A DNA stretch of 20,433 nucleotides from positions 1 through 20,433 of the forward strand of contig JAOBWK010000106.1 in NCBI GenBank assembly GCA_025463305.1. Reading direction: 5' to 3'. Shown here one piece after another: positions 3,154 through 6,304 of this stretch (position 1 is the stretch's first letter; every line of letters begins with the position of its first letter). Below the pieces are notes generated by a model. The model did no database searches and was not told the origin of the DNA. It saw only the letters and a list, made by a program, of their open reading frames with translations. Source of the DNA: Ilumatobacteraceae bacterium. GTDB lineage: Bacteria; Actinomycetota; Acidimicrobiia; Acidimicrobiales; Ilumatobacteraceae. The translations under genes and the position numbers were made by a program.

Positions 3154-3858
3154 ATGGACCCCTCCGGAATCATCTTCGCCGCGCTCGACTGCGATGCCGA
3201 CGCGATCGAGACCTGGAACCGCTGGTACGACCTCGAGCACACGCCGATGAACGTGTGCCTCGACGGCGTGATGCTCAGCCGCCGCTACGTCGCCACGCCC
3301 GAGCTCCACGCGGCGCGGCTCATGGCCGACGGCTCGCCGTTCGCGGGTGGACGGGCGACGTTCCTCACCACCTACGTGCTCGGCGGCGATCCGCAGATCG
3401 CGTTCGACGCGATGAGCGTGGAGCTGCCGAAGCTGTACGAGGACGGGCGGATGACGTTCCCCGCGGCGAAGAAGGTCGTCCGCGAGGGCGATGTGTTCGC
3501 CGGCTCCGACGCCGTCGGCCGCGCGGTCCTGCAGCTGCGGCCGCGTGAGGTGCCGTTCGTCGGGCACACCGGCGTCATCGTCGTCCAGCGACGCGAGGAC
3601 GACGGCCGCGCCGCGAAGATCGCTGAGCTCGACGGCGTCACCGGCGTGTGGTCGATGGCGTCGCGCAACCGGCCCGGGCTGTTCCTCGACATGATCTTCG
3701 TCGAGGACGATCCGGCGGGACGCGCCGTCGCGATCCGCGCCGCGGTGCCGCACACCACCGAGTTCCTGGTCGACGCCCCGTACCTGTTGATCAACCCGAT
3801 GAGCTACCCGTGGGCGGACGCGATCCGCGACTCGGACCTCCCGAGGACGATCGCCTGA
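3154..3858 (+). CDS. Conserved hypothetical protein, probable dimeric alpha/beta-barrel (EthD/Dabb-like)
   Basis: A 234-residue protein. The N terminus (GIIFAALDCDADAIETWNRW then YDLEHTPMN) has the W-YDxEHxP pattern of EthD/Dabb-like ferredoxin-fold proteins, in which a short strand is followed by a helix carrying a conserved His. The second half (GVIVVQRREDD, about 140-150, then GVTGVWSM) may be a second copy of the fold, as in two-repeat members. Function is unknown; relatives include monooxygenase-like and decarboxylase-like enzymes. The ATG at 3154 is preceded at 6 nt by TAGACC, one base off TANNNT. It sits alone between the NTF2-like gene and the 3' end of the selenoprotein gene. Confidence 0.7.
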   Translation: MDPSGIIFAALDCDADAIETWNRWYDLEHTPMNVCLDGVMLSRRYVATPELHAARLMADGSPFAGGRATFLTTYVLGGDPQIAFDAMSVELPKLYEDGRMTFPAAKKVVREGDVFAGSDAVGRAVLQLRPREVPFVGHTGVIVVQRREDDGRAAKIAELDGVTGVWSMASRNRPGLFLDMIFVEDDPAGRAVAIRAAVPHTTEFLVDAPYLLINPMSYPWADAIRDSDLPRTIA

Positions 3859-3877: not shown

Positions 3878-5635
3878 TCAGCTGCAGGCCTCGCGGTTGT
3901 CGATGCGGCACACCAGGTCAGGCGAGTAGCTGCGGTCGACGGCTGCGCTCGTCCAGTTCCCGTGCGGCCCGTCGTGGCTCATCGCGTACGCGTTGGCCCG
4001 TCCGGGATCACCGGCGACGGCGATCAGGAGGCCGCTCGGCGCGGCCACGATCGGCACCATCCGCTCCGGATCGTCGGAGACCGCGAAGTCCGTTGGCGCG
4101 TGCCCGCCGGCGACGAGCTCGACCAGGGTCGGACGGCCCGGAGCGAGGTTCGACCAGTCGCCGATCAGCGCCTCGAACTTCCACGCCGGGAGGCGGGCGT
4201 GCTCGTAGAGGGCGGTGCGGACGTCGTCCTTCGACCAACCGGCCCGGGCGAAGGTGCGCGCCAACAGCGGTGACAGCACGAGCAGCGGGCGGTAGTGACC
4301 GTGCCCGAGCCCGGCGAGATGGACGAGGTCCCAGCCGCTGACCCGGACGAGCCCGTCCGCGAGGTATGGGATGATCTCCGCGGGCGTCGAACCGACGACG
4401 CTGCCGATGATGATGCCGCTGTTGATGCGTCCGATGGTGACCACGTCGTCGCCGCTGCGGTGACCGAAGTCGGCGCACAGCGACGACCAACCGATCTCGC
4501 GCAGCGCCGCCTCGTCCTCGGCGAGCACCACCCGGGCGCTGTTCCCGAACGTCGCCTTGTCGTGCTCGTCGGACGTGAAGCCGCACACGTTGCGGAGGAA
4601 CATCCGCAACCAGCGCGCGACGCTGGTGTTGGCGTGCGCCCCTTCGCGGAGGGCACCGGGACCGTGGTTGAACCCGAGGTCGTCGATCACGCTGCCGTTC
4701 AGGACGACCAACGCGTCGGCACCGGTGGTGTTGCCGGAGTGCTCGACGCCGTAGTGAGGATCGATCAGCACCTCCGCGATCGCGAGGAGCACCGGAAGGT
4801 GGGCCGGCTCGCAGCCGACCATCACTGCGTTGACGGCGATGGACCACACCGTGATGTCTCGTCCGGACGGGCGAGCGATGCCGAGCGTGCGCCACGGGTC
4901 GTGGCCTGTCGGCGCGATGTACGCCTCGACGCGAGCGCGGGTCGGCGGCACGATCGGCAGGCCGTCGGTCCAACCGCGCTCGCCGAAGGCGCGGTTGACC
5001 TCGTCGATGGAGCCCGACACGGCCGTGTCGAGTGCGCTGGGCTCGGCGATGGCCGCCATGCCGATGTCGAGCGGTCGGGTCAGCCCGTCGACGACCTGCT
5101 GGAACGTGTGCTCGAGGAACGACGTGAGCATCTCCTCGGAGGACTGCGCGTCGACGTGGCCACGCATCACCGCGAGCGCGAGCCCGTCGAACCCGAGCCC
5201 GCGCCCGGTGGCGCGCGCCTGCCGTTCGAACCCTTCGCAGACCAGGGAAACGGTCGGCACGCCGGCACCTTCAGCTCTGACGGATGCCCGCAACACGGCG
5301 GGCGTGCAACTGCCTCAACAACCGTTGCCGACGACCACCGCGTCGATGCCGTGCTCGGTCAAGGCCATCGGCAGGTCGCGGATGATCGCGTGTTCGTCCG
5401 GGCCGTGGATGTTGCCGAACACGTCGTACCCGACGACCTCGATGCCCTCGTAGCGGTGCTTGAGGGTGCGCTCGAGCGCAGCGAAGATCTCCTCGCCGCG
5501 GAACAGGTAGTCCCACACGAACGCGATGCGCTTGCCGACGAGGGTCTCGAGCCGCTGCGCCGCCTGGCGGGACTGGACCCCGAGGGGCGACCTCGGCCAG
5601 ACCACGTCGTACATCGGCTCGGTGTTCGTCGTCAT
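3878..5635 (-). CDS. UGSC-family selenoprotein (in-frame UGA read as selenocysteine)
   Basis: One 585-residue frame, interrupted only by a TGA at 5317-5315 that I read as Sec107. The sequence around it is V-G-N-G-C106-U107-G108-S109-C110-T-P-A-V: the U-G-S-C signature of the UGSC (seleno)protein family, with conserved SCTPAV and PTVSLV following in the same frame. Residues 1 to about 200 form the UGSC domain (KRIAFVWDYLFRGEEIF, then VVVGNGC). From about 210 a second domain begins with GWTDGLPIVPPT (221-232), then a Gly-rich region with NAVMVGCEPAHLPVLLAIAE. Its function is not established; UxxC plus a neighbouring Cys suggests a redox role. The ATG at 5635 is preceded by GGAG 6 nt upstream. 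Left unrecognised, the gene would be split into a 106-residue ORF and a 472-residue ORF starting at GTG 5296. Sec insertion requires selA, selB, selC and selD, none of which lie in the window. Confidence 0.85.
5286..5303 (-). promoter_or_regulatory. Putative bacterial SECIS hairpin downstream of the Sec codon
   Basis: In the mRNA, 11 nt after the UGA, a perfect 6-bp GC stem (GCCCGC / GCGGGC) closes a 6-nt loop CGUGUU. The apical loop starts 18 nt after the UGA. Its second base is G and is followed by U. As I recall the bacterial SECIS consensus, it calls for an upper stem of at least 4 bp, a short loop with G in its first two positions, and a UGA-to-loop distance of roughly 16-37 nt; this hairpin meets all three. 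Bacterial SECIS elements bind SelB and lie inside the coding region. High GC makes chance hairpins possible, but the position is exactly where one is required. Confidence 0.7.
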
Positions 5636-5688: not shown

Positions 5689-5710
5689 GTATCACGCGCG
5701 CGACGGCGCG

Positions 5711-5716
5711 TATCCT
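5711..5716 (+). promoter_or_regulatory. -10 box of leaderless promoter for the TetR gene
   Basis: TATCCT followed by 6 nt (gcgtcc) and the GTG at 5723. This fits TANNNT at leaderless spacing and favours the GTG over the ATG at 5726. Confidence 0.5.
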
Positions 5717-5722
5717 GCGTCC

Positions 5723-6304
5723 GTGATGGAGATCGACGATCCCGCCCTCCTCGATGCCGTCGGGCGGATCCTGAACCGCGATGGTCTGACCGGGCTGTCG
5801 ATCTCGGCGGTGGCCATCGAGGCCGACGTCTCCCGGGTGACGCTGCACCGCCGCGGCATCGAGATCGACGCCCTGCTCACGGCCGCCGTGCTGCGCGCCA
5901 CGGCGGATCTGCGGCAGTCGCTGCTCGCGCCGCTGACGAGCGGCGAGGACGCGGCCGGGCGCCTCCGCCTCGCCCTGCACGTGCTGTGCGAGGTCGTCGA
6001 GCGACACGGGCCACTGCTGTCGGCGCTCTACCACCAGACCGTCGGACCGAGCTCGCCGACCTCGGCGCAGAAGGCGAGCTTCGAGTTCACCGATCCGTTC
6101 GAGCGCTTCCTCGCCGACGGTGTCCTCGACGGCACGCTCGACACCGACGATCCTCACGAAGACGCGGAGATGCTCGTCAACACCGTGGCGTGGACGTACC
6201 TGCACATGCGCCGGTCGCATCGCTGGTCGGCCCGCAAGGCGGCCGACCGGACGATCGACCACTGCATCGCCAAGGTGCTGCGCAGTCCGTCAGCCGTCGG
6301 CTGA
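5723..6304 (+). CDS. TetR/AcrR-family transcriptional regulator
   Basis: A 193-residue protein. The N-terminal helix-turn-helix spans about residues 8-55: DAVGRILNRDGLTGLSISAV, then EADVSRVTLHRRG, then a helix leading into the ligand-binding domain. The C-terminal part is all-helical, with no recognised subfamily. The GTG at 5723 (directly followed by ATG) is set by the upstream -10 box. It is divergent from the UGSC selenoprotein gene across 87 bp, the classic arrangement for a local repressor of its neighbour. The ligand is unknown. It converges on the TOPRIM gene with a 7-nt gap. Confidence 0.85.
   Translation: MMEIDDPALLDAVGRILNRDGLTGLSISAVAIEADVSRVTLHRRGIEIDALLTAAVLRATADLRQSLLAPLTSGEDAAGRLRLALHVLCEVVERHGPLLSALYHQTVGPSSPTSAQKASFEFTDPFERFLADGVLDGTLDTDDPHEDAEMLVNTVAWTYLHMRRSHRWSARKAADRTIDHCIAKVLRSPSAVG

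Follow-up and report, generated by a model that had tools for sequence, protein, structure and literature searches.

UGSC is, to our knowledge, a known selenoprotein family that is functionally uncharacterised. It also occurs in fused form, as the selenoproteome of the Global Ocean Sampling already contained, by the excerpted account of 2008, a UGSC selenoprotein domain joined to a conserved domain of unknown function (UGSC/Unknown_1; PMC2398784). Two further systems invite comparison, namely GrdB and PrdB, which according to the available extract of PMC13188914 carry out selenol-driven reductive cleavage, and the selenoproteins of thioredoxin fold. The gene described here lies on contig JAOBWK010000106.1 of an Ilumatobacteraceae bacterium, within a stretch of 20,433 nucleotides that was analysed as a whole and is referred to as the window. 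By the published account, as far as the extract goes, a UGSC domain fused to an unknown domain is not new, and the present gene adds a member.

On the minus strand, positions 5635–3878 form a single frame of 585 codons with one internal TGA and no other stop, as read directly from the sequence and translated with TGA as U. Codons 1–106 run from ATG 5635 to 5318, with a Shine-Dalgarno-like GGAG (5645–5642) 6 nt 5' of the ATG; codon 107 is the TGA at 5317–5315, and the frame then continues through C-U-G-S-C-T-P-A-V (residues 106–114) to the terminal TGA at 3880–3878. The preliminary description had proposed two open reading frames (5635–5318 and 5296–3878) in one frame with a single TGA between them, which, read as selenocysteine, gives U-G-S-C followed by TPAV and a 585-residue product without frame shift, and this is borne out by direct reading and translation. 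Its forecast of how gene callers would split the gene held in part: the recorded protein of this contig in the public database does start after the TGA, but it has 460 residues, beginning MPTVSLV (start GTG 5260 by count), and is not the predicted 472-residue product of the frame from GTG 5296, a codon that falls inside the loop of the hairpin discussed below. The gene very likely encodes one selenoprotein with a redox role in general terms. Insertion of selenocysteine at UGA107, probably helped by the hairpin just 3' of it, is strongly supported by comparison (probability of roughly 0.95), and the earlier proposal to this effect gains support from the conservation of the TGA, cysteine in orthologues, the placed hairpin and the selenocysteine machinery of relatives.

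As a selenoprotein, the product belongs to a fused branch within the UGSC superfamily. PF24696 (UGSC) matches residues 11–186 (5605–5078) with an E value of 4e−28 and 99.1 bits against a gathering cut-off of 25, and this one domain bridges the TGA at 5317–5315. The family assignment made earlier from the motif therefore stands at the level of Pfam, but not at that of the NCBIfam UGSC equivalog NF041046, which scored 47.2 bits versus a curated cut-off of 125; taken together, the two scores point to a divergent, fused branch. With the UGSC family (PF24696/NF041046, “UGSC family (seleno)protein”) the gene shares the Sec-Gly-Ser-Cys motif, present as C-U-G-S-C in the window and with selenocysteine or cysteine in relatives, as well as a putative SECIS hairpin in the same place. 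In contrast to standalone UGSC relatives, where the residue before selenocysteine is mostly Asp, a Cys precedes it here, and approximately 390 extra residues are fused to the domain. In Pfam at an E value of 0.001 nothing besides UGSC was found in the 585-residue protein, and NCBIfam holds no family for the C-terminal part (residues 196–585; 5050–3881). The latter domain, whose homologues are also encoded by separate genes, has 5414 matches at E 0.001 and forms part of a large unnamed family. UGSC/Unknown_1 has a comparable architecture by description in the extract of PMC2398784, and its Unknown_1 may correspond to this C-terminal domain. At two loci (L058 and L059), one gene encodes the UGSC part and another the C-terminal part. 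The second of these, from Microbacterium, contains genes for aconitase X and its small subunit (recognised by eye), followed in a row by the separate Cys-UGSC and C-terminal-domain genes (L059:4094-7588).

With GrdB/PrdB, the UGSC domain shares the succession of a strand, Sec-x-x-Cys, a helix, and then Glu-x-x-Gly-[IV]-Pro-[TS], whereas the C-terminal domain has no detectable similarity to GRDB. The comparison was drawn only with 12 GRDB-like proteins that the relatives encode: PF07355 was matched in 10 of the 13 relatives' genomes tested, and the 12 GRDB-like loci, read through their TGA, contain V-D-x-x-L-L-x-P-V-U-P-x-C, then E-x-x-G-[ILV]-x-T. When the profile of 58 UGSC domains was compared with that of these 12 sequences, the probability was 84.8 and the score 47.0 over 65 columns, with the selenocysteines and the cysteines of the two in register; as controls, the best of 20 column shuffles scored 18.3 and the C-terminal domain against GRDB 12.7. 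For the 585-residue protein itself, PF07355 was not reported at an E value of 0.001. The profile likeness is modest evidence and may reflect either common descent or convergence.

A UxxC motif at a helix start is also what the protein has in common with selenoproteins of thioredoxin fold, and a thioredoxin-like fold was proposed for UGSC in the extract of the 2008 report (PMC2398784). Both would suit a general thioredoxin-like thiol-disulfide oxidoreductase or antioxidant instead of a metabolic reductase, an alternative that we consider rather unlikely. The UGSC domain is predicted to adopt a Rossmann-like fold, in contrast to the thioredoxin-fold proteins, and the 50 structure matches listed for the model were all Rossmann-like or of a similar three-layer type, with no thioredoxin among them, which does not exclude one; a sequence search of the PDB gave a best E value of 0.86. 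Moreover, the conserved 390-residue partner domain suggests a specific substrate, and the resemblance of the UGSC domain to GRDB likewise argues for the metabolic reductase.

A candidate partner for such a reductase emerged from the neighbourhood. When the open reading frames of 57 loci (window included) were clustered by BLAST, 15 loci were found to have a thioredoxin-reductase-like gene beside the selenoprotein gene and in the same orientation, directly upstream in L045–L052, L055 and L056, and downstream in L036, L039 and L042–L044. This neighbour matched TIGR01292 with 218 bits (below the cut-off of 343) and Pyr_redox_2 with 113 bits, and a CxxC (CATC, CAFC or CAYC) is present in 15 of 15. 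It accompanies 15 of the 18 loci titled as Proteobacteria or Acidobacteria, and two of the remaining three (L040 and L041) are truncated by a contig end; no such neighbour was found in the window or in the flanks of the loci from actinobacteria. At twelve actinobacterial loci an Lrp/AsnC regulator is encoded divergently, and in six alphaproteobacterial loci a second copy of the C-terminal domain lies next door. Further neighbour clusters comprise short-chain dehydrogenases (14 loci, window included), TauD dioxygenases (seven, window included) and P450 (five). The window itself encodes a TauD, a Rieske oxygenase, short-chain dehydrogenases, an amidohydrolase and an intradiol-dioxygenase-like gene, a content that fits catabolism and names no substrate. 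The literature searched contained no mention of a thioredoxin-reductase-like partner or of a relation between UGSC and GrdB, which is not proof of absence.

The best mechanism for the protein is that of a selenol-based reductase. UGA107 would be decoded as selenocysteine with the help of the hairpin just downstream, and the resulting Sec-x-x-Cys pair at a helix start of the UGSC domain, beside a second cysteine (C106), would constitute the redox centre. The selenol may then attack or reduce a substrate bound with the C-terminal domain, whereupon a selenenylsulfide would form at the Sec-x-x-Cys pair, to be reset by a thioredoxin-reductase-type flavoprotein that uses a pyridine nucleotide. Within this scheme, a thiol/selenol redox role is probable, resetting by the thioredoxin-reductase-like flavoprotein, at least in Proteobacteria, stands at even odds, and GrdB/PrdB-like reductive chemistry on a small metabolite is offered tentatively. 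A wider and doubtful proposal is that, in environmental bacteria of mostly aerobic habit, the UGSC fusion reduces small organic molecules in a selenol-dependent way. It would then be a remote offshoot of the selenocysteine domain of GrdB/PrdB, served by a thioredoxin-reductase-like flavoprotein of its own and equipped with a substrate-binding domain from a large family that is as yet undescribed. If this is true, reductive chemistry with a selenol, known from anaerobes that ferment amino acids, would also have a place in the catabolism of Acidimicrobiia, Binatota and Proteobacteria. The thioredoxin-reductase-like neighbour and the GrdB/PrdB resemblance lead to a testable biochemical guess on what UGSC fusions do.

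Two genes of the window directly flank the selenoprotein gene. A 234-residue reading frame on the plus strand (3154–3858), without Pfam or NCBIfam match, is convergent and ends 19 nt from the selenoprotein stop. On the other side lies a divergent TetR-like gene (5723–6304), for which control through an operator was considered and rejected: it scores below the Pfam cut-off (24.7 versus 26.4), it is not a conserved neighbour, and a repeat search (seed 6) returned only an 11-nt, 82 % inverted repeat at 5691–5727. By eye, a 10-nt inverted repeat with 9 of 10 positions complementary (5684–5675/5663–5654) is visible between the selenoprotein and TetR-like genes and may be an operator.

The selenocysteine reading itself draws on how well the codon is conserved. 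Scanning the genomes of bacteria and archaea yielded 66 homologous loci, in which the aligned codon is TGA in 56, TGC or TGT in four (L058, L059, L062, L064), misaligned in one (L060) and uncovered in five. The TGA loci, at 26 to 72 % identity, are titled in their records as Actinomycetota, Binatota, Pseudomonadota, Acidobacteriota and Chloroflexota, and TGA is likewise found in every one of 20 loci that were read from the 32 carrier genomes in the order of G004. A protein search returned 2079 homologues among 7997 scored, and the best 120 listed all have 456–490 residues as compared to the full 585, meaning that they were called from a start located past the TGA; the product of this gene, one of many, is thus cut short in databases. 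With residues 1–195 alone, 174 matches were obtained, and the best 120, which were considered, include 15 full-length proteins (558–586 residues), the other 105 being shorter. The preliminary description had asked for cysteine at position 107 in homologues, and this is what all 15 full-length orthologues listed contain, as CCGACT or CCGSCT. In a tree of 82 rows (67 Sec, 15 Cys), built by a quick method with SH-aLRT only and with very long branches for L057 and L154, the Sec/Cys label needs three changes, and the starred branches force three. If selenocysteine is ancestral, this amounts to three replacements by Cys. A plasmid search with a Cys orthologue gave 24 records, all below 60 % identity, which were set aside.

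These data leave hardly any room for a broken gene or a sequencing error, with the TGA being a real stop or a miscalled TGT/TGC: standard gene callers do stop there and most listed database homologues are truncated, but the same TGA recurs in the 56 loci and in the 20 read in the order of G004, the hairpin behind it is frozen, and the frame has no other stop. It is just as hard to believe that two proteins are made, one of 106 residues and a C-terminal one with a start of its own. The separate genes at L058 and L059 could be taken in favour of such a division; there, however, the split falls between the domains and not at the Sec codon, leaving each part whole, whereas a break in the window would halve the UGSC domain, and the 15 Cys orthologues are one chain.

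For the reading as a single selenoprotein, the second line of evidence is the hairpin GCCCGC-CGTGTT-GCGGGC at +12 to +29 after the TGA (5303–5286; arms 5303–5298 and 5291–5286, loop 5297–5292), whose function as a putative SECIS element is strongly supported; a search of the window in Rfam gave no match above the gathering score. Synonymous sites were evaluated in 56 sequences (the window and 55 loci) with 500 simulations from each gene's own codon use, L057 being excluded because its hairpin differs. Every one of the 56 sequences uses CCC (Pro), GCC (Ala), GTG (Val) and CGG (Arg) as codons +5, +6, +7 and +9, and 52 of 55 use ACG for Thr +4; the expected codon shares at these five positions are 0.40–0.54, and none of the 500 simulations reached the observed value at any of them. 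The conserved bases form GCCCGC-CGTGNT-GCGGGC, again at +12 to +29, so that the synonymous sites of the hairpin are frozen across phyla, while the first base of codon +8 and codon +10 are free, as the hairpin predicts. Constraint extends beyond the hairpin as well, with Cys −1, Ser +2, Ser +21 and Ser +23 exceeding the simulation, and the only unbroken constrained block that matches arms and loop is +4 to +9. Pairing is kept at the inner five positions in 56 of 56 sequences and at the outer pair in 53 of 56.

A second sample, taken from the genome searches, comprised 36 loci (L139–L174), of which 31 fit the first pattern and 13 of these repeat earlier loci. The 18 new loci all retain the inner five pairs (18/18), and their outer pair is G-C in 11, A-T in two, G-T in one, C-C in two and T-T in two, the exchange of G-C for A-T being a compensatory change in 2 of 18. 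The UGAC variants L139–L141 bear the same hairpin. Furthermore, 14 other UGSC genes with TGA from the same genomes (L102–L115; L102–L104 are near-copies, L110 has a long downstream frame and L115 is an outlier) have a hairpin at the same place composed of different bases. Standard pairs fill 91 of their 98 pair cells, a number that falls to 14, 46, 29 and 46 on displacing the 3' arm by +1, +2, −1 and −2, and compensated pairs occur at +18:+24 (C-G in 11, G-C in three) and +16:+26 (T-A in nine, A-T in three). Sec and Cys genes cannot be told apart by folding energy alone, as Cys homologues fold at the hairpin site too.

That the host has its own selenocysteine machinery, as the preliminary description had predicted, we infer from its relatives; the 20,433-nt window contains no tRNA gene. 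The search covered 27 genomes, which stand behind 27 of the 66 loci and of which 22 have a TGA gene. Among these 22, tRNA-Sec was found in 20 (score of at least 63.5 bits, all UCA by ARAGORN), and matches over the cut-off were obtained for SelA in 20, SelB in 21 and SelD in 21. One TGA-gene genome (G013, that of L032) has none of SelA, SelB, SelD and tRNA-Sec above the cut-off, another (G022) is without tRNA-Sec, and in a third (G004) SelA is a mere fragment at the beginning of a contig; we take these gaps for incomplete assemblies. The Cys-type Microbacterium genome (G024, L059) is without SelA, SelD and tRNA-Sec and has no SelB over the cut-off. In a sample of alphaproteobacteria, the fusion was matched in 15 of 385 genomes, and SelA was found in 15/15 carriers as compared to 41/370 others (Fisher p 5e−14); in the order of G004, carriers numbered 32 of 298, with SelA in 30/32 versus 145/266 (p 6e−6). 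Both samples include seed genomes (G015–G017 and G004), without which p is 2e−11 and 9e−7, and all of these values ignore kinship.

The machinery also counts against an altered code, in which UGA would be read as Trp or another amino acid, and against plain readthrough. An open frame alone cannot discriminate between these and selenocysteine, but the full-length orthologues have Cys and not Trp at the position, the gene's own terminator is a TGA, and tRNA-Sec together with SelA, SelB and SelD occurs in relatives; decoding by either route is accordingly very improbable, and insertion of selenocysteine remains the preferred reading. The SelD match itself contains an in-frame TGA in ten genomes (G002, G005, G006, G007, G011, G012, G014, G015, G016 and G022). 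In Geodermatophilus ruber (G025; L061; L082 and G025:C24:74493-75002), a tRNA-Sec-like gene has the anticodon CUA (Pyl according to ARAGORN), and a UGSC gene contains an in-frame TAG; a CUA tRNA together with in-frame TAG has been reported for the family of this organism, as stated in the extract of PMC5330540.

Several minor observations concern the distribution of UGSC genes. A second kind also has TGA and reads on far downstream (open frames of 554–564 codons); it is distinct from the branch in the window and is represented by L110, G015:C10:22501-23007 and G016:C109:139458-139961. Three genomes (G008, G009 and G010, of loci L009, L010 and L012), titled Binatia or clustering therewith, contain eight UGSC matches each; L009, whose record title is Desulfurellaceae bin18, groups with the Binatia loci in the tree and has a range identity of 63 % to them, and its title may be wrong. 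Finally, the fusion is present in Novosphingobium and Steroidobacter (L055, L056, L046), genera that include steroid degraders, and is the sole UGSC match in G020 and G021.
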